From Loxodes magnus (taxonomy: Eukaryota > Ciliophora > Karyorelictea > Loxodida > Loxodidae): a DNA stretch of 64,000 nt. A program made the translations under genes and the position numbers. Of this stretch, positions 7,785 to 58,667 are shown piece by piece (position 1 is the stretch's first letter; each line of letters starts with the position of its first letter). The notes under the pieces were generated by a model, which saw only the letters and a program-made list of their open reading frames with translations, made no database searches and had not been told where the DNA came from. The DNA is taken from contig CAMPDV010001786.1 in the NCBI GenBank assembly GCA_946699065.1, positions 39,871-103,870 on the forward strand. The letters run 5' to 3'.

Positions 7785-8548
7785 TATATATAAAAAATGG
7801 TATCTAAGAAAGCAAAGACCTCTCCAACAAAATTTACCAATTAACCTGACCTTTCTAACGACTTCTATTTACTGCAATTGGATAATCAGAAGCTAGCAAA
7901 AGAAGTGTAAGATCTTAAATAAATAACTTAATCTCTAATGCTAACAATCAACAGATTGTTAAATGAATAAAATCCTAAAGAAAAATTTAAATAATAGACA
8001 TCTTCTTAAAAGATGTAAAGATAAATTACCTAAATCGAATGGAATCTAAGACTAAACTTCGACCAAAGAATTAGTTAATTAGAGCAAATCAAGATTAACT
8101 AATGTTCTAATCCAAAATCAAGAGGAGTGCAGAACAAGTCACTTTCCTATCAGAAAATAGAAAAAAGATGTTGATATTGTAAAAAATATGGTCACAAGGT
8201 AAATCAATGCTATAGATTCAAGAGTAAATAATATGAAGAAACGAAGAGAGGAATTTAAAATTTATTTAAGATTTATTGTACACCAAACGGAATTTTATAC
8301 TAGAAAAAAAGATTTTAACCTTACTAAGAAGCTCCAAAGATTACAGATGCACTAAGACGATATAAGAGATGACAAGTAGGATTTGATTTCCAAGCACAAA
8401 ATAGAGGATAAAATAAACAATTTATAAGAATTTATGATCCGGAAAAACCAGATGAATATGACATTGAAGAATTTTGATTTGGATAAACTTTTACAAACTC
8501 TAATTTCCTGACTAACCAAATAAAGGTGAAGTCACTTTAATAAATTAT
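7785..8548 (+). mobile_element. ZK1 element inserted in kelch K1
   Basis: About 760 bases that are absent from the matching point of K4, K5, K7 and K9. Both flanks carry a TTATATAT-like sequence, present once in the uninterrupted copies, consistent with a short target duplication. The exact edges are blurred by AT-rich flanks. Confidence 0.7.
7797..8540 (+). CDS. ZK1: intact coiled-coil/CCHC zinc-knuckle ORF of a gag-only mobile element
   Basis: An uninterrupted 247-codon frame, MVSKKAKTSPTK onward, if TAA/TAG are Gln and TGA is Trp. The N-terminal half is Gln/Lys/Leu-rich and coiled-coil-like. A perfect CX2CX4HX4C zinc knuckle follows (RCWYCKKYGHKVNQC, about residues 124-138), then a conserved tail motif YCTPNGILY. 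The three in-frame TGA codons are at 8172-8174 (second residue of the knuckle), 8370-8372 and 8475-8477, each in a context that suits Trp. The frame runs to tandem TAA TAA at 8538-8543, at the element's end; whether these terminate is unknown. No polymerase or integrase is encoded. The protein probably binds nucleic acid like a retroelement Gag/ORF1p (inference). The element sits inside kelch copy K1. Confidence 0.75.
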
Positions 8549-9132
8549 GTTATGTTATATATTCTAAAGATAAAGTTGAGAATTATTAGATATAATTTCA
8601 AAGGTACTTCCACAAAACTAAATCCAACAAGAGAAACTTAATTTATATATTATCTGGGAAATATGACGATTGTATATTTGAGTGTGAAGTTTTCGATATA
8701 AACAATAAAAGTTTTAGAAACATTTAGACTATACGAAATCAAGTAAATCTTTTTGGTTGCGATTACAGTTATTAAAAATTTATATTTTTGGAAGTTGAAA
8801 CTAAAAAAAAGGAGGCTAAGATACAATATAGATATTCGATTATAGAAGAAACGAATGAAATATACGTGACTAAGTAATAATAAAAAAAGGTAGAAACTTC
8901 TGCTATTTTCATTCCTTAAATATAGTCTTATTTTATTTTCTCTAATCTAAATTCTATAGATACTTAGATATTCGATTTTAAAATAATATAAGTTAAAGGT
9001 TAAAAATATCCATTAAATTGATTAAGTGATTATATTTAGCCAATATGAAGTGGGAATCTAGTTTATTAATACAGAAGTGATGATTAACTATTAAGTTACG
9101 ATTTAAGAAGTGAAAAGTGGACTAAACTTTGA

Positions 9133-11592: not shown

Positions 11593-12517
11593 ATGTACCA
11601 ATAGTAATAAAACTAGAGTGTTAAGATTATGTATCTCAGGAAAATCATAAGAAGATTATAAACGTTTGATAGAAATTTAATTTTTGGTAGATTTGGTTTA
11701 GGAGTCGTTAAATAAGAAATTTGTGCAGGTATTAGAGAAATTCCATAATACCATAATGTATCCACTATATATAAAAATACGAGTAAAAGGTAAACTTATT
11801 CGATAACCTCTTAGAAGATTAAAAGTAAAAAGCTAAATATAGAAAAGATTGATTATCATTTCCCTTGGATAGAATAAATTTATGAAGATACTTTGCTAAT
11901 TTCAGGTGCTAAGAATATCAATCAAGATAAATTTACTGTTTATTCTGATTAAAAAGTAGATAATTTTTAAATGCTGTTTAAGAGGTATTTTCATAGAACT
12001 AACTACAATAGAAAAATAAGATTAACATTATTTCAGGATAAAGTCGAGAGGAAATAGATATACCAAGCTGTGAAGTTTTCAATATAAATACCAAAACTTT
12101 CCAAAGCATATAATAAATTCTAACTCCAGTACATGTATTTGGATGTGATTCATATGATTAGAAAGTTTATGTATTTGGAGGTTGGAATCTTGAAAAAAGT
12201 GGCTAAAATAGTATATAGATAATGATAACAACAGTGATGTATGAGTGAAAAGTATTTAGATAATAACTAAAAAAGTATAAAATACAGCTATCTACATTCC
12301 TTACCAACATTTTTTTCTTATTTATGCAAATCTTAACGCAATAGAAACTCAAATATTTGACTTGAAGCAAATAAACATCAGAGGTTAATAATATCCATAT
12401 ATTCTTGGAAGCGACTTTACCAAACCAGTTTTAAGCAAAAATGTAGTATATTAATTTAGGAGTGATAATTAATTACTCTTCTACGAATTGAAAAACGAAA
12501 AGTGGACCAAAGTTTGA
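11593..12517 (+). pseudogene. Kelch-family copy K2, divergent paralogue with frameshifts
   Basis: Starts MYQQQQNQSVKIMYLRK and runs through blocks that align with K4/K5: FGRFGLGVVKQEIC, LISGAKNINQDK, KRYFHRTNYN, CEVFNINTKTF, FGCDSYDQKVYVFGGW, YRSDN/QFRSDN and NEKWTKV, ending at TGA 12515-12517. Here the kelch GGW Trp is TGG (12183-12185), whereas most sister copies have TGA. At least two indels break the frame, around 12.03 kb and 12.2 kb. It is far more diverged than the other copies and may represent an older duplication. Confidence 0.75.
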
Positions 12518-13029: not shown

Positions 13030-14367
13030 ATGCAAGCAGAAAGCAATTTAATAAGTATTCTTTATCTTAGAAAGATCTTAAGGTAACTTCCATTTACTAA
13101 AGAAAGCTAAATTTTAGCAAAGCTTGGTATAGGAAATTTAAATATGAAATATGTTATAATCTTTGATATTAAATGGATCTATTAAGTATAATTACAATGT
13201 GATTGAATACTAATGTCAAAAAGAATTATAGCGTTAATAATTAAAATTTACAGAAGAGTTAACTAATATCAAAGAGATTGATATTTATAATATTTTTATA
13301 GAGCAAACTTCAGAAGATGCTTTAATAATACCAGGAGCTTAGAATATTCAATAATAAAGGCTTATTATTCACTCCAGTAATAATAATAAGATAAAAAAGT
13401 TTCAATACTTTGATTATTGGGACATTACTGCACTACTTATAATTATATTTCATGCGAATTATGTTAAGTATAAGAGTTTATGTAGGTTTATAGTCAACCT
13501 CTAGTTAATTCTTCCTGCTCCTGTTCTTTTGTTTCTTCTATGTTAGTTATAATATGTGTTGATGAAAATTTTTAAAGTATTTGCCAATCTTAGGGATTTT
13601 ACTTTTTATAAAGTTTGAATTAATATAATTTTAGTAATACATAATTAGTTTTTTATAATCTTTTTCATAAAGTGTTTTTCGATTAGATAATTCCTAGCAG
13701 ACATTTTTATAGAAAGTACATTCAAATATATGATTAAGTTCGTCATAGCTAAACCACATGCCCAATCAATCCCATTTTATGTGTTTATTGACGCGTACCC
13801 TCTAGTAATAAAATTGGAAATTATGAGATGTAACATAAAAAATATTTTTCATAAGACTAGATTCAATAAAAGTTGCTTATATTTTATCAAAAGCATATTA
13901 ATTAAGCAATAGAGAAGAGTGTAAGATCTTCAATACAAGTACTAAAATTTTAGAAACATCGAGAAGATTAAAGAACCAGTGTTTATTTTTGGATGTAACT
14001 AAGCTAATAAATATTTATACTTTCGGAGGATGAAATTTTGAAAAAATATGATTAAAATTTAATTTAAATGTATGATTAATTAAGAAAAGAGTGAAATATA
14101 AGTAACTAAGTAATAACTAAAAAGGTTTAAACTTCTGCTATTTTTATTCCTAAACTATGATCCTTTCTCATATACTCTAATAACAATTCTATTGATACTC
14201 AGATATTTGATTTTAAGGAAATAAAAATTAAAGAAGAGAATTATTCAGTAAGTAGATATGTTGATTATACTTAGCCATTATTAAGTAGAAGTATAGTTTT
14301 CTAATATAAAAGTGATAATGGATTATTTGGCTGCTATATAAGTAGTGAAAGATGGATTGAACTTTGA
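13030..14367 (+). pseudogene. Kelch-family copy K3, broken and interrupted
   Basis: Begins MQAESNLISILYLRKILR and ends WIEL followed by TGA at 14365-14367. A 416-base LINE2 fragment lies inside (13,384-13,799). Outside that insertion there are several indels, for example just after ILAKLGIGNLN. The kelch GG followed by TGA is recognisable near 14.02-14.03 kb. Its mirror copy K6 in the right arm lacks the insertion. Confidence 0.75.
13384..13799 (-). mobile_element. 5'-truncated LINE2 copy
   Basis: Absent from the matching place in the right arm (about 30.63 kb). It is flanked by a near-perfect 12-base duplication, CTCCAGTAATAA at 13372-13383 and CTCTAGTAATAA at 13800-13811. The left end is a (TTA)n tract followed by sequence matching the 3' end of LINE2 at 61.01-61.13 kb (shared phrase TTTCAATA.TTT.ATATTG.GACATTA). 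This is the pattern of a minus-strand, 5'-truncated non-LTR insertion. Confidence 0.8.
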
Positions 14368-16604: not shown

Positions 16605-16707
16605 TCTTATAATATATTCTATAAAAAGTTTAAATATAACTTAAGTTTATAAAATGTAATAAAAAAGTTTATAAGATATAAATAATAATTTAATATATAT
16701 ATTATAA

Positions 16708-16781: not shown

Positions 16782-17185
16782 TTTTTTAGATATCATTTAA
16801 AAGTTTTGATGTAAAAATATTTATTTTAGATAAAGAAATATGTGAGTAATAAGGTTGATGTAGAAAAGTTTCATAAATATTTTTGCAATAATGACTTAAG
16901 ATTTTTGTATTGTTTAAATATCGGAAAAATAAAAGAAAAATTCAGAGGCCGGGGATTGAAACTGGGTCGTCTGCGAGACAGGCAAGTTCTAGTTGTTCAA
17001 TTTCCATCATTATTGGTGCTTATTATTGATTCGCTTCTTTTCGATCTTATTATTTATGAACAAAAATGCATTTTTCATTTTAAAAACTTCCTTCTTTTGT
17101 TGTTCTCCTAGGATTTCTATATCCCCATTGATCTTTAAAGTTACTCTTGTTTAATCTATAATCCTTTATGGGGAAAATCAACTTC

Positions 17186-17790
17186 GAAATGATCCTAAAA
17201 CTTTCTGCCCTTATAGGCTTTAGTCGCCCATTCTTTATATGCTTTTCCTTTCATCTTGTAAGTAACCAAGTGAGCGCAGGAATTACTCTCGCCATATCTT
17301 CCCTAGTCATTCCTAAAATCAGTTCCTTGATGAGATCCCCAAGATATATGTAAGAATTTAATGTTGTGATTCTTGGCTGTCACTATCCTTCTTCTTTTAT
17401 AGCAGGTTCTCAGCTGATGCAGTTGCATGTTAATCTTCTTAGATTATCTAGGAGTGATTATTTGTAATTACTCTTATGTGACTTTAATTGAAGAATCTAT
17501 TTTAAAAGAAGACATGAATAAGAAAGTTGTGGTATTTTTCTTCATTTTTTCTTCCTCATCTTTTTCTTAGAGGTTATGTAAAAGCACTTTTTGAAAATTC
17601 TATCATTAAAAAGATTAAGCCTAATTATAAAATAATTATAAAACTACTTTAATTTTAAATTATTAAATCATTTTATATTAAATTATCACATATAAACCTA
17701 TTTATTGAACCATTTTTAATGATATTCTCCCTTTAAACATTTTAACTATTTCTTCCATAAAAATGTTTATAATATTTAAATTTAAAATTT
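17186..17790 (-). other. Left-only segment with a coding-like remnant
   Basis: Lies between the inner palindrome block and K4 and has no counterpart on the right side, where K5 and the inner block are only about 110 bases apart. On the minus strand about 17.19-17.34 kb reads as a coherent frame (KELILGMTREDMARVIPAL, then a TGA in Trp context, then KEKHIKNGRLKPIRAES). I do not recognise the family. It could be the remains of another inserted element. Confidence 0.35.
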
Positions 17791-17836
17791 TAGATTAGTA
17801 ATGTACTTTATTAAAGTCTAAATGTATTTATCTTTC

Positions 17837-18751
17837 TCAAAGTTTAGTCCACATTTCACTTCTTAAATCGTAACTTAACAGTGAATCATCACTTCTGTAT
17901 TAGTAAACTAGATTCCCACTTCATATTGGCTAAGTAAAATCACTTGAGCTATGTACTGGATATTTTTAACCTTTAACCTATATTGTTTTAAAATCGAATA
18001 TCTAAGTATCTATAGGATTAAGATTAGAATAAATAAGATAAGATTTTATTTAAGGAATGAAAATAGCAGAAGTTTGTACTTTTCTTGTTATTACTTAATC
18101 ACATATATTTCATTCGTTTCTTCTTTAATCGAACACCTATATTGTATCTTGGCCTCCTTTTTTATTATTTCAACCTCCGAAAATATAAATTTTTTAATAA
18201 CTGTAATCGCATCCAAAAAGATTTACTGGGTTTTTAATTGGCTAAATGATTCTAAAACTTTTGCTTTTTATATCGAAAACTTCACACTCAAATATATCTC
18301 TTTTTTATCTCCCAGATAATATATAAATTAAGTTTCTTTTATTAAATTTAGTTTTGTGGAAGTATCTTTGGAATTACATCTAATAATTCTAAATTTTATC
18401 TTTGGAGTTTATATCGAATCTCTTTCATTCTATACTATGTGAGCCAGATATTACTAAAGTATTCGAAGTTATTTATTCTATTGAAGTAGCATGATAATAA
18501 AGGCTTTGTGCATCAATTTTCTCTTCTTAAAATTGTTTGGCTTTAATGTTATAGTTCTTTCTTATATTTGAATTATATTTAAAAGTAACTATATCTGTAA
18601 AGTTTTTTAGATAGCTTAGATTTGAGCAGACTTCATATTTAACAATTCCTATTCCAAATTTAGATAGAATTTAGATATCTTGATTACATTAGATTGATCT
18701 TAAAAGTTTTCTAAGGTAAAGGATTTTAATGCATTAGTTTTCACTTAGCAT
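17837..18751 (-). CDS. Kelch-family gene K4, intact
   Basis: An unbroken 304-codon frame plus TGA stop (17837-17839) when TAA/TAG are Gln and internal TGA is Trp. It starts MLSENQCIKILYLRKLLRS. A conserved N-terminal part is followed by kelch-type repeats: IYIFGGWNNKKGGQDTIQVF, then a DQRRNEW strand, a FIPQIKSYLIY strand and a final SYDLRSEMWTKL. TGA encodes the Trp of GGW (18170-18172), of NEW (18110-18112), and those in SIEWKRF and PIWSGN; the last Trp is TGG. Kelch blades form beta-propellers used for protein binding; the partner is unknown. The upstream conserved element lies at 18752-18806, and the 3' end of LINE1 abuts it. The mirror partner is K5. Confidence 0.85.
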
Positions 18752-18812
18752 TTTATTTATAATTTTAAAAGTTAATAATCATTTAAATAAAATCCACGTA
18801 ATAAATAAAAAA
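18752..18812 (-). promoter_or_regulatory. Conserved kelch upstream element (K4)
   Basis: The stretch before the K4 ATG matches that before K5, K7, K8 and K9, centred on TTACGTGGATTTTATTTAA. Conservation of non-coding sequence immediately 5' of the start suggests a promoter or 5' leader, though it may simply be part of the duplicated unit. In K4 the outermost bases are replaced by the LINE1 3' end. Confidence 0.45.
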
Positions 18813-18819
18813 ACTTAAT

Positions 18820-18858
18820 TATAGAGTGTGTAGCACCTCGTTGATGAGTAGCTCTTTC
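18820..18858 (-). promoter_or_regulatory. LINE1 3' stem-loop tail
   Basis: Minus strand reads AAAGAGCTACTCATC then AACGAGGTGCTACACACTC. The same hairpin-forming tail ends the SINE-like elements. It is a likely recognition structure for the LINE1 reverse transcriptase (inference from known LINE/SINE pairs). Confidence 0.7.
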
Positions 18859-19299
18859 CATATCTCAATATATTACTGTTTTTTCAAGTAAGCCTTCAGG
18901 TAATAAAAATTATTTCCTTATTAGTTACATATCTTCCTCATTTTCCTCAACATTATCTCTTATTCTTCTTTCTTCTATCTATTAAGCTTTATTATATCTT
19001 TATTGCAAGCTTAATTTATTTTTTCTTACATATCTTACTAATTTTCATTTCTAATTCTTTTCTTCTTTATCAAGCTTTTATACATTCATAATAATTATCC
19101 TTTTCCTGCTCTATAGTCTTTTACTATTTCTTTATTCATTCAATTTTCTTTCTATTTATCCTTTTTTCTAATATATTTTTTATATAATCTTTTATTATCA
19201 AGTCAGCTGAACTCTTTTTAGGTTCTAATGAATTTTTTGAATTTGGCCGTACCTCATATTATATCAAATAGTTCCATTCCTTATCTCTCTACTCCTATA

Positions 19300-22200
19300 G
19301 CTCTTAGATTTCAAAACATATTTATCTTCCTTCTTTGTATTCTGCACATTTTTCTATGATATGCCTTTCATTTTCTCTTGCCTCATTACAGAAAGGGCAT
19401 TGACTTGCCACACAAGATGTTTTTCTTTAAGGAATCCTATCTTCTATTACATCTCGTTCTTATTCTAAATATGTAACTTATTTCTTCTTCTCTATTTTTA
19501 TTCTATCTTGGATAGTAGGGTGGTCCTACTACATATTCATCAAAATATATTTTTCTATATTGTAATGTTGCTATCATTTACTCCATTCTTTCTCTATCTT
19601 CTACGTATACTCTATATTCTCATATTACACGATTAGTGTTTTTCTTTCCTTTTTAATTGCTGCATCATCTATAAATATTTCTTTGTCTTCAACTTTTAAT
19701 TCTAATTTTATTGCTGTGCAATATTTTTCATATATAAAATTCTCTTCTTTACTTAGGTCGATCATTATTCCGTCTACTTTTTTCTTTAGTTTCCTATTAA
19801 TTTGCCTCTTAATCTCAGCATTTTTTGTCATAGATAATGCTTAAATTTCATAAACTGCAATTCATGTTCTAACATCTCATTTTGCACTTAAAAAGGGGTA
19901 TCTATGATTATTCGTAAAGACCTTCTCTATAATATTTCTAATTTCTCCATTATTTATTTTCCTACAAATTATTCGCAATATGAGATCACTTCTGTCCCAT
20001 AACTGAAAACTGAGCTTACGAAGGATTTTATCATTATTCTTCATTATATGGTGTTAATCCCTTATTCATTGCTATTTTTTCCAATATTCATGCATTTTTA
20101 TGCTGCTTCTAGTCTAGCTCCATGTGTTTTTCAAAACTGATGTTCTCTTCTATTATATGACCTAGGTACTAAAAGGTCGTAACTCTTTCGATCCATAAAT
20201 TTCCCATCTCAATAGTATTTCCAATACTTTCTCAGTTACTATTTTCTGCTGATTTTCACACTATTCATTTTGCTTTATCTGCAATTTCCAATTTATCTTT
20301 TCTGCCCATTAGGTTAAATTTTCTATTACTTCCTCTAATTATTCCCATTCACTTATTAAGGGTAGGTTATCTGCATATGCAAAACATCCTACATATATTT
20401 CTTATGTTCATCCCTCTTCATTTTTATAGTCTATCGTAATTCCTAGCTTTTAATCTTCCAAGCTATGGAAAAGTTTGCTATTATCAAGCTAAATAATCTC
20501 ATCGACGCTATGCTTCCCTGTTTTAGCCCTTTATTTGTCGCGAATGATTTTGCTATTTAATCATTAAATTTCAGTTTAATTTCTTCTTCGCTGAAGAAGT
20601 TTTCTAGAAGTTTAATTATCTATTCCTGTACTTTTAGATTGTTTAGGATTTCTCATATATCTTCTTTACACTGATTCATAATCTTTCTTAATATTAACAA
20701 GCATTACAAAAACATCTTTTTTGTTCCGCATTGATTATTCCTATACTGTTCTTAGATTGAAGATTCATAGTCCCATGACTTATCTTTTTTGAAACCATAT
20801 TAATATTCGCTTTCATCATTATGTAGATATCCTTACAATTGACTAGAAAATTCGAGTGTCTACAATTTTTAAAGCATGATTCAATAAAGAGATTGGTCTA
20901 TAGTTTATCGGGTTCGTCTATCCTCCTTTTTTTTATATTAGTTTTATGTATTATTATTTCATCTCCTAAGGTATTACTCCCTCTTAAATCTTCTTAGCTA
21001 TTATTTTTCGAGTTACTTCAATTGATTTTTTCCCGCTTATTAAAATTGCTCCTACTTATATTTCATCAGGTCCTGGTGCTTTTATTTCTCCAATTAGTTA
21101 ATGTTTTCTCAAATTTCATATTCATTTATCATTATTTGTCTCTTGCTTTATAATTTATTTAGTATCATATTATCGCCATCTTCATATAACTGCTATCATT
21201 CGTCCCTGAAAGTCTTAACATCTTCTTTTGATAAGGGTACTCACTAATTATTTTTTCTATTAAGCAGGCTTTTTAGTTTCTTCCACATTTCTTTCAGGAT
21301 TCCTTTATTTACGTTGTCCATAAATAGGTTAAGTTAATTTTTTTATCTTTTTTTCTTGATTAAATTATTTTTGTCTTACTCTTTGATATTCTCTATATTT
21401 CTAGCTTTATTGATTTTCATTTATTTCTTCGTTGTTCTTTATCCTTTATTTTATTTGTTTGCTACGTTTTCTGAATTTTTTATTACATTATTTTGTTGCT
21501 TCTGAGTATTTAAATATCCTAAATTTTATATTTTAACTGTTGTACATACCATTTAAACTCCTTCTTATATGTTATATCTTATGTCTTTTTCTTTCATCAT
21601 TTATAAGTATATGTACCGTTTAGTAGTTATCGATTTCTTCTTCTATGATATTTCTTGCATAAATCTTTCAAATTTTTTGTAGATCTCTTTTTCTTTAATA
21701 GTAGGTAATTTATTTTTGTTATTTTTAATGGTTTTCTAACTTCTTTAGCAATCTTTTCCTTTATTATACCGGGTCTATAATCTCCTATTACGTATGAATA
21801 ATAAAAATCACTTTTTATCACAATTTTTCTCATTATATCTTCATTTAAAAAGTAATCTATTCTATATTCATTGTTTTAGTGTACAAAAGTACCTATTTCA
21901 ATGGGTCTAGGCACATTAAATTATTCTGTTCCATGAACTGTAGCATTCTCTTACCAGCTGAGTTTGTTTTCTTCGGTAACCATTACTCTATATGCACATT
22001 TTAATCTCCTATGATCATTACATTAAGTCTTTTTTCTGTTGCTTATAGTTTGAATTCGTTCACTAAGTTATAGAATGTCTCATATTATTAGCTGTCTCTT
22101 GCCACAGGTGTATATATATTTATTACTGTCAGTTTTTTCATTATTTCAATGACCATCACTCTCGCTCCTCTAAAAAGCGTCATTTGGTTGATTTCATTCT

Positions 22201-22340
22201 ACATTTCTCTAATCTCCTTAAATATGTCGTTTCTAATATAGAATATATTTATTTCTATATCCTGCTATATTACACATATCTTTTAATCTTTAATCTAAAT
22301 CTCTTAAATTGCCATTATACGATGATTTTTTGAATCAATG
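19300..22340 (-). pseudogene. LINE1 ORF2: endonuclease-reverse transcriptase
   Basis: In order from the N-terminus: exonuclease-endonuclease-phosphatase domain with NIYTPVARD, VMIIGDQNVHI (about 21.99-22.02 kb); reverse transcriptase with EIKAPGPD (21064-21085), GLKQGSIAS (about 20.5 kb) and the catalytic FAYADN (20367-20384; YADN instead of the usual YADD); thumb-like YLGHIIEENISFEKHM, SYGTEV and LQRRSLRIII; and a terminal CPFCNEARENERHIIEKC (CX2CX8HX4C) near 19.35-19.40 kb. These are the parts needed for target-primed reverse transcription. One frameshift is needed near 20.48 kb and another near 20.2 kb. An in-frame TGA at 20408-20410 lies between GITIDYKNEEG and TQEIYV, and another before ILEKIAM. 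Confidence 0.88.
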
Positions 22341-23099
22341 AATTTGATATGTGCCCCTTTTGCACTTCTAACTCCCCTAACATTTACTGTCCCTATTTTT
22401 ATGACTTATTCTTATTCTTCTTTTTTCACTCATCTCCTCTGCTTCTTCATCACCACTTTCTTCATTTTATTCATCTTCCTTCTCCACCTTTCTTTCATCC
22501 TATCTATCATTCTCTGCTTCTATATTATTTTCATTATTAATTCTTTCCCCTTTTTTATCTTTTTCCACTTATTATCTATCTTTTCCTTCTTCTTATTTAT
22601 TCTAGTCTTCTTCTTTTGCCTTTTCCTATTAATTAATTGTTGTTGGATAATTGTTTATTTTCTTTTCTTTTCTTAGTATAGTAAATTCTAATTAAAGTTT
22701 GTTTCGGTTTTCTTCTTACTTCTCAATTTTATCTTGTATTTTATTATTTTTCTTCTTAAACTTGTTCTATTTCTTTATACTTTTTTTCTTTATTTAAGCT
22801 TTTCCTTACATACTCCATTACGCTATTTTTTTGTTTCTTATTTCTTCTATTAGGGTTTAGCGTTTTTACCATCACTTATCCTATCCTTTTCTCTGATTTT
22901 TATATTATATCTTATTATATAGTTGATTGCTTTCTATTTCGTTTAGTTTTTGAATATTTCTCTATTCTTCTACCTTACATATATCCAATTCCATTTTTGA
23001 TGAAAAATAATTATTATTTATTCATTTAACATGAAAATTTTTATTATTTGATTGTTTAGTTGTTTTAATAATTTTTCTATTCTCCTCAAATTATTTTCT

Positions 23100-23960
23100 T
23101 CTCTTCTTCTCTTCTTCCCTTGCTTCCTCTATAATCATTTATTCTCCTTCTTCAATTATCCTCTTATTTGCTTTTAAATCTGGCTTTTTTATTGTTAATT
23201 TTATCTTTCATGCATCTCTAATTCTCTTGCATGTAGTATTTTCGTTTTTGCAGCTTCCACCCTTCTACATTGTTGGTCGGTGTGCCTTTTCAATTTGCAT
23301 AGATAGCAGATAAAATTTACTGGGTGCTGTATCATTTTGTTTCCATTCAGGTCTATTACTTCTGATATCCTCTTTACTTCATCTATATCCTGTAAATCTA
23401 AGTACACTACACTATTACCTGTTAGCATTTTTGTGCTTGGATATGTATGCTATACCTCTAGGTTTTTCATATTACCTCATTTTCTCCATTAATTCCTTCG
23501 TGCTTAAATATTCGTTTATTTTGAAGTAAACTGGGTAGTTATGAATGCCAAAGTTTTCTAATTAGTTTCTTGCTTGAATAGGAAAAATCTAACACCTTTG
23601 AATGTTCATTTCCTGAATTAAACGAATTGCTAGTGTCTTTTTCATCATTGAAGTCCAAATATACTATTCCGTTTTTTGTAGCAATTAATTTGGCCATGCT
23701 TGTCCATACTCGCTCCATATTTGATTCCTAAGTCACTTCTTCGTCTTTGACTTTTTTCTCTACTAAATCAGTATATTCCAGATAGTGGTTAAAATAAACT
23801 ACGGTCGTCATATCTGATAGATCATCATATTCATTTTAGTAGATTCTTACCATTTAGTCTTCAGGTACGTTAGCTGAAATAGTTTGTTCACTTTTTGTTA
23901 AATTATTGCTTAGGTTGTGATTTTTTTTACCATTTCATTCTTTTCTTATTTTATGCTCTT
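23100..23960 (-). CDS. LINE1 ORF1: zinc-knuckle nucleic-acid-binding protein
   Basis: Minus-strand frame with ERVWTSMAKLIATKNGIVYL (about 23.66-23.72 kb) and, further on, VQHTYPSTKMLTGNSVVYL, followed by a zinc knuckle CYLCKLKRHTDQQC (CX2CX4HX4C, about 23.27-23.31 kb) and a Gln/Lys-rich end. ORF1 proteins of non-LTR elements coat the RNA and act as chaperones. The start codon is not clear and at least one frame change may be present between the two blocks. The shared zinc-knuckle design links it loosely to the ZK elements. Confidence 0.7.
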
Positions 23961-24039
23961 CCTTTTATTGAAGTCTATCCAATTATAGATAAAATGATAT
24001 CCTTTTCCCGTTGAGTGTATTATTATATATAAATAAATA

Positions 24040-24352
24040 GGGAGGAGCTGCTTCCAACTGAGCTGACTTATACTCTAGCACCAGGAAGTACCCATGGACG
24101 AAGAACCAATCAAAAATCTTGGTAGGAGCTAGAGAAGACAAGCCAAGATTGAAGAGGCATCAAATAGCATTCATGATAAAAGATGCCAGATACTAAGGTC
24201 TCTTAGGGTAGCATTACGATCGTGGCCCTATAGAAGACAAAACTCACAAGGGAATGCTAGCACTGTAGAAGATTTCAGCAAAGAATTTTTTTAACTTTAA
24301 AATTTTTTATTAAAGAGCTGGGCGTGATTGAGGTGCTACGCCCTCAATAATC
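24040..24352 (+). repeat. SINE-like element S1
   Basis: About 310 bases of raised GC ending in the LINE1-type stem-loop tail (24312-24352, AAAGAGCTGGGCG ... GAGGTGCTACGCC). Internal blocks align with S3 and S5: GATGCCAGATACTAAGG, a TTAGGGTA block and GGGAATGCTAGCAC. No coding potential. It lies head to head with LINE1. The minus strand near 24.05 kb has an A-box-like CAGCTCAGTTGG, in the wrong orientation for a promoter of this element. Confidence 0.7.
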
Positions 24353-24484
24353 TCATTATTTATTTATATCATGTTCATTCATCTGTGAATTTGGTTCTGT
24401 GTAGTCTGAGTGCTTGTGTTATGAGTCTAATTTCCATTCGTAATAAAGAAGCTTGGACTAATTAAAATTAAGAAGTGGTAGAAG

Positions 24485-24555
24485 AAAGTGCTTCAGATTT
24501 TTTCATCTACTTTGAGGAGGTGTTATAAAGCCTTTCTTGAAGTTAATCATTTTTT
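24485..24555 (-). repeat. 5' fragment of a ZK-type ORF
   Basis: Minus strand reads MINFKKGFITPPQS, matching the start of ZK4 (MAGFKKGFLNTS) and of ZK11 (GFKSGFYNTSS). The similarity fades after about 25 codons. Confidence 0.5.
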
Positions 24556-24865
24556 ATTTTTTTATAGCAATAATTAATTATTGCTATTCCGCCTTTAAAA
24601 AGATATCACTGCATTGAAGTTTAATTGTTTTGACAGATTTTTAATTTCAAGTCTTTGTCTTAATCGCTTTCCTTAAAGTAATATCTATTCGTTCTTATTT
24701 AACATTTTTTTATTATTGGGATCTTGCTTCAGTCAAGTTCACTGTCTAGCATTTATTCATTCCTACTTTATTATGCAAATGCTATGTTTTTCAAAATTTA
24801 ATCCCTTCTACACGCTTTCTTTCTAATAATATTCCGCTTGGAGTACAATAATAACTAATTGATTA

Positions 24866-25600
24866 AAAAATGGAATTTAATATTAGATAACATCATACCA
24901 AAGGATAAATCAAGAAGGTTAGAAGAAAAACCCTTAAGATCTAAAAATAAAAACTGTAGGCTATTGATTAATCAAGATCTGCATCTTCTTCTTAAGGCAA
25001 GTAAACTAGCAAACATCGAACCTGATAATCTAGAAAAGGAAAAAATTGAAAACTTTAAATAAGTAATATTTAAACAAGAGGAAACAATCTTTAATCTTTC
25101 CAATTAGACAAGAGAAATTTTAGCCAATTATGTTCAACTAAACATTGAAATTGATTAAATTAAAGATTTATTAATAAAATGAAATCGTATTGCGAGAATA
25201 AATCTGATTTCAGACTTAACTTCCACCATCTTAATATGTAAAAATGGAAATAGAAGCTAATTTAAATTAATTATCACACATACTAGCTCTTTAATATCAA
25301 GATTTATAAGAGATCAATTTAGATTAGATACCCTTATTACAATAATAAAAATAGGAGGAAGCAAAAACATTAAAAGAAATAATAAGAATATACCTTACAA
25401 AATAAGAAGTGTATAAAAGAAAATTTTTTTAATGAATCTCATACGAAAATAAGTTTCTAGATAGTCTTCCTCATCAAAAAGACTGTGGAAATCAACCATG
25501 TATAAATCTGGGCTGCTTCAAACAGTTTGAAAATTCTGGGGAAATCAAAACGCTTTTTTAAAGCTTTAAGTAAAATATTATATTATATATTATTACTAAT
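24866..25600 (+). mobile_element. ZK3 element
   Basis: Starts at ATG 24870 with MEFNIRQHHTKG, matching ZK2 (MEQNIRLNK), then SASSSQGK. After a frame change there is a coiled coil beginning DNLEKEKIENFKQVIF. The end QFENSGEIKTLFQ matches the conserved ZK C-terminus, followed by an ATT-rich tail. The zinc knuckle is not recognisable, so this is a degraded copy. Confidence 0.6.
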
Positions 25601-25780
25601 TGATTGTATAAATTTAATTTTCTTGTTATTATCTTTTTTAAAACTATTTTTAGTATAACCAAATTTTTTACAATATCAGTGTTACTTTTTTCTGATATTA
25701 ATAAAATATTTAGGCTTATTTTTAAGTTAATAAAATTAAAAATTTAAATGCTTAGATTTATATTAAAAAATTATATTTAA

Positions 25781-26045
25781 GGGTGCGTAGCCCTATAATA
25801 GGACACATCTCTTTAAAAAAGTCAATTTATAAGTCTCTTCAGTCTCCAATATTCCCAAAGCATTCTCTCTTCTAATTGTGGGCAAGGTTGCAGCTCAAAA
25901 TCACCAAAGTACGGGCGATTACAGGAAATTTCCAACCCATGATGAAGAAATTAGTCAGGTCCAACATTTAGAACAGATTGGTTCTCAGTCAGTTCAACTC
26001 TGGGGAATTCTTCTCTCGACCTTAAAAGATAAGGTGCACCCTATT
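25781..26045 (-). repeat. SINE-like element S2
   Basis: Raised-GC block whose left end on the minus strand has the stem-loop tail (GGGCTACGCACCC next to AAAGAGATGTG). The body differs from S1/S3/S5, so it is probably a second SINE subfamily sharing the tail. Confidence 0.55.
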
Positions 26046-27020
26046 TAAATTATAAATAAAGTTAAATTACTGTTTATTAAAATGTTTAATGGTATTATAT
26101 TAATTTCCAAAAGGATTATAAAAGTAAAATAAATAATTATAATTTTGTAATCTCTTTTATTAAAAATTAAATTAGATATATATTATAATTAAGATACTAA
26201 TCTAAAATTAATTTCTTTATTTAAACCTTTAAATATTATTTATATATTAGAGAATTTAGAAATTAAACTAAAAGTAAATAAATAAAAGTTAAAATAAACT
26301 AACAAAATAAGTAAACCTAACTTCATCTAGTTTTACATATTTAAATAAACTTTATTTATTAATATAACTATATTGCTTATGCAAAAACATAGGGTTTATT
26401 TAGTAATTTACTTAACTGAATAAGCAATAACAAAATAGTAAAACTATTTTAAAGTTCTAAATACTTAAAGATTTATGCATATTTAGGAAATACTTAATCT
26501 TATAATTATAACTTGAATATAACTTTTCTATATTAGAGTGAATAGAAATAAATTAATTTCTACTTATGAAATATATAAAAAATAAATAAATAATGTATAA
26601 AATAAAAAGTTATAAGATAATAATAATTACTTACTATTATTATAATATATTATCTATATTATATAATTACTAAAAGCAGTTATGTTTATAATAGCTAAAT
26701 AGTCATTTTAAAGACAATTAGATTAAATTAAAATACTTAGATAATAATTATTTTATTTATTATTATTTAAAAGGTTTAAAATTTAAGAGTAGTAAAAAGA
26801 TTTAATGAGCTTTAAAAGAATATATAAATATTCAATTTTAAGCTTTATTAATTAGTTTTTATTATATTTAATTTGGCACTATATTACAGAAAAATTATAC
26901 TGTTCTTTTAAAATAAAGCTAGAAAAGTGTTAAAAATTAAAAAGAAAGTAAATGTTTATATTAGAAAAAAAAGTAAATTAAACTAAGTTTAATTTACTAT
27001 TTCTAATTATTCTGAACTAT
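26046..27020. other. AT-rich spacer
   Basis: Very AT-rich DNA between S2 and K5. No motif, tRNA or repeat recognised. Confidence 0.5.
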
Positions 27021-27083
27021 AAATGATGTATTATTACGTGGATTTTATTTAAGTGATTATTAAGTTTTAAAATTATAAATAAA
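27021..27083 (+). promoter_or_regulatory. Conserved kelch upstream element (K5)
   Basis: Begins AAATGATGTATTATTACGTG and continues to the ATG. It is the complete form of the block found before K7 (39243-39305), K8 (47368-47429, minus) and K9 (57697-57758). Likely promoter plus leader, or the 5' end of the dispersed unit. Confidence 0.5.
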
Positions 27084-27995
27084 ATGCTAAGCGAAAACTA
27101 ATGCATTAAAATTCTTTACCTTAGAAAACTTTTAAGATCAATCTAATGCAGTCAAGATAGCTAAATTCTATCTAAGTTTGGAATAGGAATTGTTAAATAT
27201 GAAATTTGCTCTAATCTACATTAATAAAACTTTGCAAATATAGTTACTTTTAAATATAATTCAAATATAAGAAAGAATTATAACATTAAAGCCTAACAAT
27301 TTTCAGAAGAATAGACTGATATTTAGAGCCTTTATTATCATACCACTTCAATAGAATAAATAACCTCTAATAATTTATTAATATCAGGATCATAATAAAT
27401 AGACTAAAAGAGATTTGATATATACTCCAAAGATAAAATTGAGAATTATTAGATGTAATTCTAAAGATACTTCCACAAAACTAAATTCAATAAAAGAAAC
27501 TTAATTTACATTCTATCTGGAACATATGACGATGACATAATTGAGTGCGAAGTTTTCGATATAAGCAGTAAAAATTTTAGAAACATTTAGCCAATTAAAA
27601 ACCCAGTAAATCTATTTGGATGTGATTAAAGTTATTTAAAAATTTGTATTTTTGGAGGTTGAAATAATAAAAAAGGAGGCCAAGATACAATATAGGTGTT
27701 CGATTAAAGAAGAAATGAATGAAATATATGTGATTAAGTAATAACAAGAAAAGTACAAACTTCAGCTATTTTTATTCCTTAAATAAAATCTTATCTTATT
27801 TATTCTAATCTAAATCCTATAGATACTTAGATATTCGATTTTAAAACAATATAGGTTAAAGGTTAAAAATATCCAGTGAGTACTCATAGTGATAATACTT
27901 AGCCAATAAGAAGTTTAAATCTAGTTTATTAATACAGAAGTGATGATTCACTGTTAAGTTACGATTTAAGAAGCGAAAATTGGACTAAGCTTTGA
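27084..27995 (+). CDS. Kelch-family gene K5, intact
   Basis: An unbroken 303-codon frame and TGA stop (27993-27995). It begins MLSENQCIKILYLRKLLRS and is very similar to K4 throughout. Kelch signature CIFGGWNNKKGGQDTI, where W193 is TGA (27660-27662), is followed by VFDQRRNEW, where W213 is TGA (27720-27722). The final strand is SYDLRSENWTKL, with Trp as TGG. The first part, about residues 1-130, is conserved across the family but has no motif I know. The predicted product is a soluble beta-propeller-type protein; no signal peptide or membrane segment is evident. Its position mirrors K4 across the palindrome spacer. Together K4 and K5 are the best candidates for working genes in the window. 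Confidence 0.85.
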
Positions 27996-28512
27996 GAAAG
28001 CTAAGTACATTTAGACTTTAATAAAGAACATATTTACTCTAAATATTTTAAATATAAATTTTATCAAAATTATTTATATAGAAAGAGTTAAAATTTTTCA
28101 AGGGATAAATGTTGACTATCCCCATAAAGAATCATAGATTAAACAAGAGTAACTTTTAAAGATCAATGGGGATATAGAAATCCTAGGAGAACAACAAAAG
28201 AAGGAAGTTTTTAAAATGAAAAATGCATTTTTGTTCATAAATAACAAGATCGAAAAGAAGCGAATCAATAATAAGCACCAATAATGATGGAAATTGAACG
28301 ACTAGAACTTGCCTGTCTCGCAGACGACCCAGTTTCAATCCCCGGCCTCTGAATTTTTCTTTTATTTTTCCGATATTTAAACAATACAAAACTCTTAAGT
28401 CATTATTGCAAAAATATTTATGAAACTTTTCTACATCAACCTTATTACTCACATATTTCTTTATCTAAAATAAATATTTTTACGTCAAAACTTTTAAATG
28501 ATATCTAAAAGA

Positions 28513-28586
28513 CGCCACCGGGTGGACTTGAACCACCGACCTTTTGGTTAACAGCCAAACGCTCTAACCTATTGAGCTACGGAGGC
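28513..28586 (-). tRNA. tRNA-Asn (anticodon GTT), right-arm copy
   Basis: Same sequence as 16708-16781 on the opposite strand, including the 4-69 T-T mismatch in the acceptor stem. The downstream T-tract is shorter here, interrupted by a C. Two identical copies of a working-looking tRNA are consistent with recent duplication or gene conversion. Confidence 0.97.
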
Positions 28587-28689
28587 TTATAATATATATA
28601 TTAAATTATTATTTATATCTTATAAACTTTTTTATTACATTTTATAAACTTAAGTTATATTTAAACTTTTTATAGAATATATTATAAGA

Positions 28690-28768
28690 TCCGAGGTAGT
28701 ATAGTGGCTAGTATTTCTGTTTGAAGGAATTTCCACTTCGTTTAAACCAAACTCCATTGTCTGGAGGC
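28690..28768 (+). pseudogene. tRNA-Asp/Glu-like relic (right arm)
   Basis: Plus-strand mirror of 16525-16604. TCCGAGG plus TAGTATAGTGGCTAGTAT look like the 5' half of tRNA-Asp/Glu, but the rest does not fold. Confidence 0.6.
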
Positions 28769-30059
28769 AAAATAAATATTTAAAAAGTCTTTTTCCAATA
28801 TTTTAAAATCTTATTTAGTTCTCTTGATAATTAGCTTTCCTTTGTTAATCTTATTATACTTACTTATATATTATATTATTCTTTTAATCTTTATTATTTT
28901 TATTTTTAAGTAAATGTTTTATTTCTATAAACTTCTCCTAGATTATTGCAGTAAAGCTGTTTTTATTCTCTTCTTGTTCTTCTTCATTATTATCTTTTAA
29001 TGTTTTTTACTTTTTCTAGTCGTTTTTTATTATTTTTCATTGGATGTCAAAAACTTTTTGTATCTCCTATATAGATATTTTCGCTAAATTACATTTTTAG
29101 AATTATTTCTTCCTCCTTTTCTAATTTAGAAATTAATTACCTTCTATATATATTAGATTGACTTGTCCTTCAATTAATAAGATATTTCTTTTTAATGTTT
29201 AATTTTCTATTTATTTATAAAATTTGTAATTCTATCTTCTAAGGTTGGATATAAATTGACTATTTTGTTTTATTGCTTACTTCATAAGACTTTTAAATAT
29301 CTTCCTAAGACATATATTTATTTCTTTCTATTTGCTAAAATATTCCATATATCTTACATTTTCCTTTAAATTCTTGATCTCTTCTTTCAATTTTAATATT
29401 AAATTTATTATCTGCTTAAAGTTCAATTTTTCATTTGTAAAGATCTCAAAAGCTTGCTAATGGAAATCTGACTTTACCTATTTTGAGGTTTTCTTCAGAA
29501 ATAGGAGATGCCTATATAAGGATTATTTTTTTGTTGATATTTAACTATTCCATTTAATCCTATTTCTTTGAAGCTAGATGAATCCTTTATTCATTCTTAT
29601 ACTTTTCACTAATTTGATTAGTTACATCTTTAATAAGTATTTTAAGTTTTATTTTATATGCACTTTCTATCTACTGTATTCAAACTCCTCTCTCAATAAT
29701 TTAACTCTTATTCTAATCTCTAATAAATCCAGTTTAAATAACCTTTTTCTATCTTCCTATGATCCAATTAATTCTAGACGATCACTATATAAATTTAAAA
29801 TCCTTCAAATAACTTTCAAGGCTTTGCAAGATTAATAAAATAAAGATTATCAGTGCTTAGCTTTTAAACTTTTTCCATATGCAAATAATTGCTTAATCAC
29901 GCAAAATAAGTTTACATTAGCAAAACTTAGCTAATCAAACTAAAAAATTAGCTTTGTAAATTATAAAGAGATGCTTTAATATAATACCTTCATATGAAAC
30001 TATATCTATTTCAGAATTAATTAATTAATAGGAATATAAGAGTTATTGATATAAAGCTC

Positions 30060-30961
30060 TCAAAATTCAATCCATCTTTCACTACTTATATAGCAGCCTA
30101 ATAATCCATTATCACTTTTATATTAGAAAACTATATTTCTACTTAATAATGGCTAAGTATAATCAGCAATCTACTTACTGAACAATTCTCTCCTTTAATT
30201 TTAATTTCCTTAAAATCAAATATAGTAGTATCAATAGCATTGTTATTAGAGTATATAAGAAAGGATTATAGTTTAGGAATAAAAATAGCAGAAGTCTAAA
30301 CCTTTCTAGTTATTACATAGTTACTTATATTTCACTCATCTCTTAATTAGTCATACATTTAAATTAAATTTCAATCATATTTTTCAAAATTTCATCCTCC
30401 AAAAGTAAAAATATTTTAATTAGCTTAGTCTCATCTAAAAATAAACACTGGCTCTTTAATCTTCTAAATATTTCTAAAAGATTTAGTACTTGTGTTGAAG
30501 ATCTCACATTCTTCTCTATTACTTAATTAATATGTTTTTGATAAAATATAAGCAACTTTTATTGAATCTAGTCTTATGAAAAATATCTTTTATGTTACAT
30601 CTCATAATTTCCAATTTTATTATTAGAGTGAATAATAAACCTTTATTATTGTACATTCTAAACTCCTCATATTATTAAAGTATCTTCTGAAGTTTGCTCT
30701 ATAAAAATATTATAAATACCAATCTCCTTGATATCGATTGGCTCTTCTGTAAATTTTTACTTATTATCACTATATTTGTTTTTACCTTAGTATTTAAGCA
30801 CATTGTAGTTAAACTTGCTAAATTAATTTAATTACTAAGATTATAACATATTTCATATTTATCAATTCCAATACCAAGCTTTGCCAAAATTTAATAAATG
30901 GAAGTTACCTTAAGATCTTTCTAAGATAAAGAGAACTTATTAAATTATTTTCTGCTTGCAT
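30060..30961 (-). pseudogene. Kelch-family copy K6, broken
   Basis: Mirror of K3 without its LINE2 insertion. Starts at ATG 30959-30961 and ends in the conserved last strand near 30.06 kb. Indels break the frame, and the final ...TTTGA is altered. Confidence 0.7.
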
Positions 30962-39305: not shown

Positions 39306-40215
39306 ATGCTTAGTCACAACTAGTGCATTAAAATCCTTTACCTTAGAAAACTTTTAAGATCAATCTAATGCAAACAAGATAACTAAGTTCTATCTAAGTT
39401 TGGAATAGGAGTTGTTAAATATGAAATCTGCTCTAATCTACATTAATATAACTTTGCAAATATAATTACTTTTAAATATAATTCAAATATAAGAAAGAGC
39501 TATAACATTAAAGCCAAATAATTTTAAGAAGAATAAACTGATATTTAGAGACTTTTTTATAATACCACTTCGATAGAATAAATGACTTCAAACGATTTAG
39601 TTATATCAGGATCAAAAAATATTGAATAAAGAGATTTATTATATATTCTAAAGATAAATTGAGAATTATTAGATGTAATTTCAAAGATACTTTCATAAAA
39701 CAAAATTCAATAAAAGAAACTTAATTTATATATTATCTGGGAGATACGACGATGACATAATTTAATGTGAAGTTTTTGATATAAGCAGTAAAAGTTTTAA
39801 AAACATCCAACTTATTAAAAATCCAATTAATCTATTTGGATGCGATTAATGTAATTAAAAAATTTATATTTTTGGAGGTTGAAGTATTTAAAAAGGAGGC
39901 CAAAATACAATATAGGTGTTCGATTAAAGAAGAAACGAATGAAAATTATGTAATTAAGTAATAACAAAAAAGGTAGAAACTTCAGCTATTTTCATTCCTT
40001 AAATAAAATCTTATCTTATTTATTCTAATCTAAATTCTATAGATACTTAGATATTCGATTTTAAAACAATATAGGTTAAAGGTTAAAAATATCCAGTGAG
40101 TACTTATAGTGATTTTACTTAGCCAATATGAAATGGAAATCAAGTTTATTAATACAGAAGTGATGATTAACTATTAAGTTATGATTTAAGAAGTGAAAAA
40201 TGGACTAAACTTTGA
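39306..40215 (+). pseudogene. Kelch-family copy K7, frameshifted
   Basis: ATG at 39306, TGA stop at 40213-40215. It follows K5 closely but has single-base losses around 39.63 and 39.66 kb, so the frame is broken twice. Downstream it is in frame again through FGGW (TGA), NEW (TGA) and SEKWTKL (TGG). It has the full upstream element and the same 3' flank as K1. Confidence 0.8.
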
Positions 40216-41812: not shown

Positions 41813-42299
41813 TAAGTTTTTTTTATAATAAGGATATAAATTCTTCATTGTAAAACTTTTGATATAATAATTTATACTTTGATTTAAAAATAAAAGATAT
41901 AAAATAATTAAATTATAAAAGCTTGTACACTGTACTATTTAAAATTAGTTTTATTTCTGTCTTGTTTTAAGAAAAAAATTGAACTTTCAAATCAATGTTT
42001 TAGAAATAAGATATTTATAAGTATACTTAATAAATAATTTGATTGTTTAATTGTATCTAAATTAAGTAAGGGAAATTATTAAGTGGAGTTATTTTAATTA
42101 AATAGTGAATTGAAGTAAGTTATAAAAATAAAAATGTAGAAAAAAGAAAAGTAATGTACTAAAAGTATTTTTTTAAGAAAACTTCTTAGAGCAAAAAACC
42201 ACATCCTAGGGAAAATATCTCTTCTTCATTTTAAGTATGAAATTCTGACCAATTTATGTTACTAAAAACTTATAAATTAGATCAGTTATGACCAAAGTG

Positions 42300-42960
42300 A
42301 AGGTATTTCTTTAATACTTTTAGATTAAGTCATCACTGGTCACGCCTCAGATGCTTTATCGATAGTTATATCAAGTAACCTGAATTGAATTGTATCAGGT
42401 TCAGGATATTCTGAATATTTGATAAAGATCTGAAATTTCCACAATGGTTCTCTCTAAAGAACCTTAATGAGACATATTTCTTCAATTTACTCGGTAGTAA
42501 TCTCCCCGGACTCTAGCTATATTGTATCAGCATCTGTTGACGAAACCATAAAGATCTGAAATTCCAAACTGGTCAACTTGTGCGAACTCTTTCTGGACAT
42601 TCAAACAATGTTTTGCCGGTAATAGTATTTAAGAATAATAGATATATCATATCATGTTATTGTGACAATTCAGTTAAGATATGGGACTTCTCAACTGGTT
42701 AGTGTATTCGTACTCTATAAGATCATACAGATATTGTACGTAGTATTTAGTTAAGTGCTGATTCAAGTGTTTTATTTTCTGGTTCATATGACAGAACAAT
42801 CAAGATATGGAACTTTGATAAGGGCGAGTGTATACAAACTTTATAAGGGCATACAGAAGCAATATCTTCCATAGTATTGAGTGTTGACAATAGATAGTGG
42901 TATCGAGAGGACTTGACAATACTGTGAGAAAGTGAAGGATTTCGAGATGAAGTAGAATAA
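42300..42960 (+). pseudogene. WD40-repeat protein pseudogene
   Basis: Four to five WD repeats can be read: TGHASDALSIVISS then SEYLIKIW (TGA, 42431-42433); SSIYSVVISPDSSYIVSAS with VDETIKIW (TGA, 42557-42559); SGHSNNVLPVIVF with CDNSVKIW (TGG, 42682-42684); DHTDIVRSIQLS with YDRTIKIW (TGG, 42808-42810); GHTEAISSIVLS with LDNTVRKW (TGA). WD propellers are protein-interaction scaffolds. A single T is missing after the second IKIW (compare ATCTGAAATTTCC with ATCTGAAATTCC), and a second shift lies near 42.89 kb. The N-terminal start is unclear. Confidence 0.85.
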
Positions 42961-46455: not shown

Positions 46456-47367
46456 TCAAAGTTTTAGTCCATTTTTCACTTCTTAAATCATAACTTAATA
46501 GTTAATCATCACTTCTGTATTAGTAAACTAGATTCCCACTTCATATTGGCTAAGTAAAATCACTTGAGCTACGTACTGGATATTTTTAACCTTTAACCTA
46601 TATAATTTTAAAATCGAATATTTAAGTATCTATAGGATTAAGATTAGAATAAATAAGATAAGATTTTATTTAAGGAATGAAAATAGCTGAAGTTTGTACT
46701 TTTTCTTGTTATTACTTAATCACGTATATTTCATTCGTTTCTTCTTTAATCGAATATCTATATTGTATCTTGACCTCCTTTTCTATTATTTCAACCTCCA
46801 AAATATAAATTTTTTAATAACTTTAATCGCATCCAAAAAGATTTACTGGGTTTTTGATTGGTTAAATGTTTCTAAAAATTTTACTACTTATATCGAAAAC
46901 TTCACATCAATTATGTCATCGTTGTATCTCCCAGATAATATATAAATTAAGTTTCTTTTATTGAATTTAGTTTTGTGGAAGTATCTTTGGAATTACATCT
47001 AATATTTCTAAATTTTATCTATGGAGTATATATCAAATCTCTTTTAGTCTATTTATTATGATCCTGATATTACTAAATTATTAGAAGTTATTTATTCTAT
47101 TGAAGTGGTATGATTATAAAGGCTCTAAATATCAGTTTATTCTTCTGAAAATTGTTAGGCTTTAATGTTATAATTCTTTCTTATATTTGAATTACATTTA
47201 AAAGTAACTATATTTGCAAAGTTTTATTAATGTAGATTAGAGCAAATTTCATACTTAACAACTCCTATTCCAAACTTAGATAGAATTTAGCTATCTTGAC
47301 TGCATTAGAATGATCTTAAAAGTTTTCTAAGGTAAAGGATTTTAATGCACTAGTTGTGACTAAGCAT
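46456..47367 (-). pseudogene. Kelch-family copy K8, frameshifted
   Basis: Starts at ATG 47367 (MLSHNQCIKILYLRKLLRS) with the conserved upstream element at 47368-47429. A base is lost near 46.91 kb (GATGTGAAG for GAGTGTGAAG), another near 46.8 kb before GGW, and an extra T just before the end puts the usual TGA out of frame. Otherwise it is close to K4 and K5. Confidence 0.8.
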
Positions 47368-57758: not shown

Positions 57759-58667
57759 ATGCTTAGTGACAACTAGTGCATTAAAATTCTTTACCTTAGA
57801 AAACTTTAAGATCAATCTAATGCAATAAAGATATCTAAATTTTATCTAAGTTTGGAATAGGAGTTGTTAAATATGAAATCTGCTCTAATCTACATTAATA
57901 AAACTTTGCAAATATAATTACTTTTAAATATAATTCAAATATAAGAAAGAATTATAACATTAAAGCCTAACAATTTTCAGAAGAGAAAATTGATGTACAA
58001 AGCATTTATTTTCATTCCACTTCAATTGAATAAATAACTTCTAATACTATAATCTTATCAGGATCATAAAAAATAGACTAAGAGAGATTTGATATATACT
58101 CCAAAGATAAAATTGAGAAATATTAGATGTAGTATCAAAGATACTTCCACAAAACTAAATTCAATAAAAGAAACTTAATTTACATTCTATCTGGAACATA
58201 CGTTGAAGATATAATTGAATGTGAAGTTTTTTATATAAGTAGTAAAAATTTTAGAAACATTTAACCTATATTAAATCCAGTAAATAGATTTGGATGCGAT
58301 TACAGTTATTAAAAAATTTATACTTTGGAGGTTGAAATAATAAAAAAGGAGGCTAAGATACAATATAAATATTCGATTAAAGAAGAAACGAATGGAATAT
58401 ATGTGATTAAGTAATAACAAGAAAGATATAAACTTCAGCTATTTTTATTCCTTAAATAAAGTCTTATATTATCTATTCTAATCTTAACTCTATAGATACT
58501 TAAATATTCGATTTTAAACAATATAAGTTAAAGGTTAAGGCTATCCAACGAGTACCTATAGTGATTATACTTAGCCATTATGAAGTGGAAATCTAGTTTA
58601 TTAATACAGAAGTGATGATTAACTATTAAGTTACGACTTAAGAAGTGAAAAGTGGATTAAACTTTGA
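57759..58667 (+). pseudogene. Kelch-family copy K9, frameshifted
   Basis: ATG at 57759 behind the conserved upstream element; TGA stop at 58665-58667. A T is lost early (AAAACTTTAAGATC) and another before GGAGGTTGA. Key point: the NEW Trp is TGG here (58393-58395), where K4, K5 and K7 have TGA. Confidence 0.8.

Follow-up and report, generated by a model that had tools for sequence, protein, structure and literature searches.

Kelch copies and their surroundings

The window (the whole stretch of DNA analysed, 64,000 nt, corresponding to positions 39871-103870 of contig C1786) contains nine copies of a kelch gene, designated K1 to K9, together with a WD40-repeat gene and a decayed LINE-type element. 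In the list below, GGW and NEW denote the codons at the two kelch-diagnostic Trp sites, and stop denotes the terminal codon.

8542..9132, plus strand: 3' part of kelch copy K1; TGA at 8796 (GGW), 8856 (NEW) and 9130 (stop)
11608..12517, plus strand: kelch copy K2, the most diverged of the window; TGG at 12183 (GGW), TGA at 12242 (NEW) and 12515 (stop)
13930..14367, plus strand: truncated kelch copy K3; TGA at 14031 (GGW), 14092 (NEW) and 14365 (stop)
17837..18751, minus strand: intact kelch gene K4, 304 codons, ATG at 18751, TGA stop at 17839-17837; in-frame TGA at 18427 (private), 18172 (GGW), 18112 (NEW) and 17923
18829..24000, minus strand: decayed LINE-type element between K4 and K5 (endonuclease domain Exo_endo_phos_2, E 3.1e-7)
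27084..27995, plus strand: intact kelch gene K5, 303 codons, ATG at 27084, TGA stop at 27993-27995; in-frame TGA at 27660 (GGW) and 27720 (NEW)
30060..30600, minus strand: truncated kelch copy K8; TGA at 30394 (GGW), 30334 (NEW) and 30062 (stop)
39306..40215, plus strand: kelch copy K6, two single-base indels; TGA at 39880 (GGW), 39940 (NEW) and 40213 (stop)
about 42134..42960, plus strand: WD40-repeat gene (Pfam WD40, E 1.2e-21), read in three frames in turn, broken in frame
46456..47367, minus strand: kelch copy K7, four single-base indels; TGA at 46793 (GGW), 46733 (NEW) and 46458 (stop)
57759..58667, plus strand: kelch copy K9, three single-base indels; TGA at 58333 (GGW), TGG at 58393 (NEW), TGA at 58665 (stop)

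The 5' part of K1 lies at about 7570-7780 and is separated from the 3' part by retroelement ORF1-like sequence. Pfam recognizes K4 through both Kelch_1 (E 1.9e-7, 30.9 bits against a cut-off of 20.1) and Kelch_6 (30.7 bits against 25.3), while K5 stays below the kelch cut-offs (Kelch_6, 24.3 versus 25.3). There are no frame-breaking indels in K5 relative to K4; the other seven of the nine copies all carry such indels, so that K4 and K5 are the only intact copies within this window. A protein search with K4 returned no relatives at E ≤ 0.001, a megablast search of positions 17000-20000 against plasmids found nothing, and under table 11 the 64,000-nt window contains no closed open reading frame of 200 or more amino acids.

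Reverse-transcriptase-like stretches are visible by eye in the decayed LINE-type element. Training a gene finder on the codon usage of the kelch genes brought up mostly retroelement-like stretches. When the six-frame translations of the window were compared with themselves, most of the output came from repeats matching in all frames; an internal repeat of the WD40 gene was the useful pair. Pfam searches of six other stretches of the window gave no match (one at a limit of 0.05, five at 0.001), and four weak matches that accompanied the WD40 result, all under their cut-offs, were taken as chance.

TGA codons inside genes and at gene ends

The nine kelch copies were aligned and their codons numbered in the frame of K4. 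As the preliminary description had claimed, the frames of K4 (304 codons) and K5 (303 codons) stay open only when TGA is read as sense; with TAA, TAG and TGA all taken as sense, both frames reach a TGA after the residues WTKL. The internal TGA codons were indeed found at the kelch-diagnostic Trp sites, with TGA at GGW in eight of the nine copies and at NEW in eight of nine, and the exceptions are the two paralogues already named as carrying TGG, K2 at GGW (12183) and K9 at NEW (58393). Codon 301, which encodes the final Trp of the protein (in RSEKW), is TGG in every copy (9/9). After the last conserved strand the terminal codon is TGA in all nine; the conserved terminal TGA described earlier therefore stands, whereas the exclusion of K6 and K8 from it does not, TGA being present at 40213 in K6 and at 30062 in K8 as well. 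Sense TGA is absent from the last 20 codons (0/180, against 27/2163 of the earlier codons, in nine window copies of one gene family). At non-Trp positions, TGA occurs in single copies at codons 104, 109, 181, 201, 236 and 268, and codon 277 is mixed, with TGA in five copies, AGA in one and TTA in three.

The genome search, covering 705,730,643 bases on 7843 contigs, gave 3049 candidate matches to K4, of which 130 were scored. Among these 130 listed matches, which include several near-identical duplicate rows, 129 contain in-frame TGA and 112 are near full length (query start at or before 8, end at or beyond 301), four of the latter being listed with an open frame of just 205 or 276 amino acids. 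Sixteen distant copies were chosen and five of them read (38-49% identical to K4), and these were compared together with K4 and K5. Within this set of seven, NEW is TGA and the last Trp is TGG in every member (7/7 each), and GGW reads TGA in three, TGG in two, Tyr in one and Leu in one. TGA occupies the aligned end position in six of the seven; L081 has its TGA three codons later, and L083 carries an additional TGA two codons ahead of the aligned end.

The Codetta-type count of codons against conserved residues that had been proposed as a check was run on kinases, with codons read in the best 30 of 136 matches. Columns were treated as conserved if they held at least ten sense residues and a majority residue, and in such columns 13 of 14 TGA codons align to Trp and one to Ile, a 72-fold enrichment of Trp. 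The invariant Trp of subdomain IX, located by its motif, reads TGG in 22 of the 30 loci, TGA in seven and Tyr in one (an extra match to the motif in L037, which read Glu, lay outside the kinase match and was dropped). TGA is the minority Trp codon in these best 30 of 136 kinases (21 TGA versus 61 TGG), a ratio that may understate its use, since the top-scoring kinases may favour TGG.

The same count bears out the reading of TAA and TAG as Gln, which is the most enriched residue at kinase columns with either codon (6.3-fold for TAA, 7.5-fold for TAG), although the most frequent majority residue is Glu at TAA columns (11, with Gln at 7) and Glu and Lys at TAG columns (6 apiece, with Gln at 5). 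In the kelch set of the window, Lys outnumbers Gln at TAA and TAG columns, which makes these copies uninformative for the two codons, and the kinase count was therefore used instead.

In the WD40-repeat gene, the WD Trp of five repeats is encoded by TGA at 42431, TGA at 42557, TGG at 42682, TGG at 42808 and TGA at 42933, and self-alignment of the internal repeats pairs TGA with TGG twice. Outside the kelch family, then, in the kinases as in the WD40 gene, TGA aligns to a specific residue; the contrary outcome, foreseen as the one that would speak against a sense TGA, did not occur.

As a separate observation, the WD40 TGA at 42933 lies near the apparent end of the gene, and it may be a counter-case to the depletion of TGA ahead of stops.

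Genetic code

Overall, the window is almost certainly macronuclear DNA of the karyorelict ciliate Loxodes magnus, translated with NCBI table 27, in which TAA and TAG encode Gln and TGA is read as Trp internally and as a stop at the end of the gene. The initial proposal that TGA is both sense and stop has held up in the kelch copies, both those of the window and those elsewhere in the genome, in the WD40 gene and in the 30 kinases. According to the available text of PMC11441545, karyorelicts, Loxodes among them, follow table 27, in which UGA is the sole stop codon and also Trp, coding UGA and UAA are depleted over about 20 codons ahead of the stop, and the L. magnus MAC assembly measures 706 Mbp; set against this account of Loxodes magnus, insofar as it is accessible, the codon meanings found here are the same, sense TGA is likewise scarce before the stop, and we found no difference. 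The same principle is reported in the accessible part of PMC4967479 for Condylostoma and Parduczia, together with mass-spectrometric data on UGA being read as Trp. The context-dependent code of this group is thus already known and published, and since both papers describe it, the TGA finding is a correct rediscovery. As proposed in the available portions of these two sources (PMC4967479, PMC11441545), eRF1 would win near the 3' end of the mRNA and termination would follow, so that sense TGA would be kept out of the last codons. In our analysis both the meanings of the codons and the tRNA genes come from sequence, and the competition at mRNA ends is adopted from the literature. A context-dependent genetic code is recoverable from raw sequence, and one fixed stop set cannot serve gene calling here.

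Other codes share parts of this pattern. In table 6 (Tetrahymena, Paramecium) TAA and TAG encode Gln and TGA is terminal, as here, but there TGA is a stop only. Table 28 (Condylostoma magnum) shares both roles of TGA, Trp within genes and stop at the gene end, as well as TAA and TAG as Gln, and differs in that TAA and TAG are also possible stops. The preliminary description had offered both tables 27 and 28; the former fits better and the latter is unsupported, because TGA alone stands at the gene ends examined, a small sample made up of all nine window kelch copies, five more kelch genes and eRF1. We consider it very unlikely that TAA and TAG are also able to terminate here. Near the ends of the window kelch copies TAA is indeed rarer (5/180 over the final 20 codons, against 127/2163 earlier), as such a code might lead one to expect, but UAA depletion is also described, in the available text of PMC11441545, for L. 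magnus with UGA as its only stop, and the kelch and eRF1 ends examined are TGA.

Even less probable is a reading in which TGA is a stop only, and K4 and K5 are pseudogenes whose TGG-to-TGA mutations descend from one dead ancestor. The frame-breaking indels in seven of the nine window copies and their setting among retroelement debris would suit such an origin; the pattern of substitution argues against it. From NG86 counts under table 27, dN/dS lies between 0.19 and 0.43 in all 36 pairs of the nine window copies, including the K2 pairs with dS above 1.1, and in codons 215-304, downstream of NEW, it lies between 0.22 and 0.81 in the 36 pairs, the top value coming from K3-K8, a pair with few differences. 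After GGW, position 3 accounts for 50/108 of the differences when four disjoint close pairs are taken (p = 0.003), and for 80/198 in two deep pairs (p = 0.022). Purifying selection on the kelch protein continues beyond the internal TGA codons.

Past the terminal TGA, position 3 holds 20/69 differences in the close pairs, compared with 38/85 in codons 215-304 (p = 0.065), a weak change in codon-position bias that can count as no more than a hint; the deep pairs differ little between the two sides (65/159 before, 35/96 after). Changes per site at positions 1 and 2, compared between codons 266-304 and the 40 codons past the stop, rise both in the close pairs (0.081 to 0.167) and in the deep ones (0.305 to 0.462), and dN/dS past the stop is scattered (0.23 to 1.85). 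The distant copies tell further against dead genes: in the 20 pairs other than K4-K5, dN is 0.36-0.59 versus a dS of at least 1.09, and the TGA at NEW is kept in 7/7 despite this divergence. So do the near full length of 112 of the 130 listed genome copies and the identical TGA reading given by the kinases and the WD40 gene.

Recoding of TGA does occur in eukaryotes, but the idea that in-frame TGA here represents selenocysteine or chance read-through rather than Trp has a practically negligible probability, given the interchange of TGA and TGG at two kelch sites, in the WD40 repeats and at the invariant Trp of the kinases, and the fact that kelch TGA is aligned with Cys in just a single column (codon 181, in K8).

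eRF1 and tRNA-Trp genes

An eRF1 domain search of the genome pointed to three places, two of which are near-identical eRF1 genes (L041 and L042). Their motifs read RAQNIKS and FLCENTF, at positions where the eRF1 of other eukaryotes has TASNIKS and YxCxxxF. Both genes end in TGA, the end having been placed by comparison with typical eRF1 C-termini.

A eukaryotic tRNA-Trp sequence had no match in the genome when used as a DNA query; a degenerate tRNA pattern later succeeded, with 134 places in the genome versus 4 for the reversed control. Among them are two tandem arrays. The one on C67 has 49 anticodon arms in the stretches read, in units of about 187 nt, and the one on C148 has 66 on the minus strand, in units of 241 nt; C148 also carries one plus-strand copy. 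ARAGORN called 47 (C67) and 67 (C148) tRNA-Trp(CCA) genes, and the two separate arrays together comprise at least 113 such genes in tandem (at least 47 and at least 66). The tRNA part is identical in 46/49 copies on C67 and 65/66 on C148, at least one of the odd ones in each array being cut by the end of the stretch. A T run of the pol III terminator type follows within 12 nt downstream in 49/49 and 65/66 copies, respectively, the sole miss being a cut copy.

Close inspection of the anticodon stem shows that the 27:43 pair is A.C in 47 copies on C67 and U.C in 67 on C148, which leaves a stem of 4 bp in every one of the 114 array copies read; three single tRNA-Trp copies on C110 (L044, L045 and L078) have U:A at this position. 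A pattern for tRNA-Trp(UCA) allowing up to one mismatch hit 182 places, and the 100 listed all carry one mismatch and fall mostly in the CCA arrays; in five near-match UCA stretches among those listed (two of five places on C140, the others on C10, C89 and C105) neither ARAGORN nor Rfam recognized a tRNA.

In its accessible part, PMC13092985 states that a tRNA-Trp(CCA) with a 4-bp stem raises read-through of UGA, and, with reference to Swart et al. eLife 2024, it reports a 4-bp-stem tRNA-Trp in Loxodes. The tRNA-Trp(CCA) of Blastocrithidia, Condylostoma, Blepharisma and Loxodes described there likewise combines a CCA anticodon with a broken 27:43 pair; what differs here is the tandem arrays (49 and 66 anticodon arms), arrays being unmentioned in the available portion of that paper. 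The amplification of tRNA-Trp(CCA) may be new to the literature. Tentatively, and with the odds in our view rather against it, gene dosage and tRNA shape could together keep UGA readable as Trp, near-cognate reading beating eRF1 except at mRNA ends. The arrays provide a handle for testing how a single codon can carry both meanings within one cell, and amplified tRNA genes may be widespread in the Loxodes magnus genome rather than peculiar to tRNA-Trp.

Tryptophan codon choice in kelch and kinase genes

At the conserved kelch Trp site NEW, TGA is used in all seven diverged kelch sequences of the assembly (G000), unlike the kinases read, in which TGG is favoured over TGA for Trp. A manual count of interior Trp codons in the same kelch sequences, leaving out the last Trp, gave 17 TGA versus 5 TGG.

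tRNA-Trp(CCA) arrays and eRF1

Two tandem tRNA-Trp(CCA) arrays (loci L074-L077) lie outside the window:

G000:C67, 482.3-491.4 kb
G000:C148, 155.4-173.0 kb

The stretches fetched contain 49 (C67) and 66 (C148) anticodon arms, and the 27:43 anticodon-stem pair is broken in the copies read from both arrays. Within each array the tRNA parts are nearly identical; the C67 units vary, with 25 forms among 42. Two eRF1 genes (L041 and L042, G000:C196) carry the stop-recognition motifs RAQNIKS and FLCENTF, which depart from the eukaryotic consensus.

Retroelement-like stretches and the kelch neighbourhood

The window holds one LINE-like stretch and, identified by eye, four ORF1-like stretches with zinc-knuckle-like cysteines:

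18829-24000 (-), LINE-like endonuclease/RT
7881-8471 (+), ORF1-like
14716-15432 (+), ORF1-like
40624-41427 (+), ORF1-like
56836-57375 (-), ORF1-like

TGA codons occur in these stretches too, and one such stretch interrupts kelch copy K1 internally. The stretch K4-LINE-K5 is bounded on both sides by an inverted repeat, each arm of which carries a tRNA-Asn gene, the two identical:

15810-17139 and 28155-29484, inverted repeat of 1330 nt, arms 98% complementary

By eye, the WD40 gene resembles the kelch genes in its N-terminal region (42150-42330 against 18751-18600), sharing LRKLLR ... F.KYE; one N-terminal module may be common to the two propeller types.
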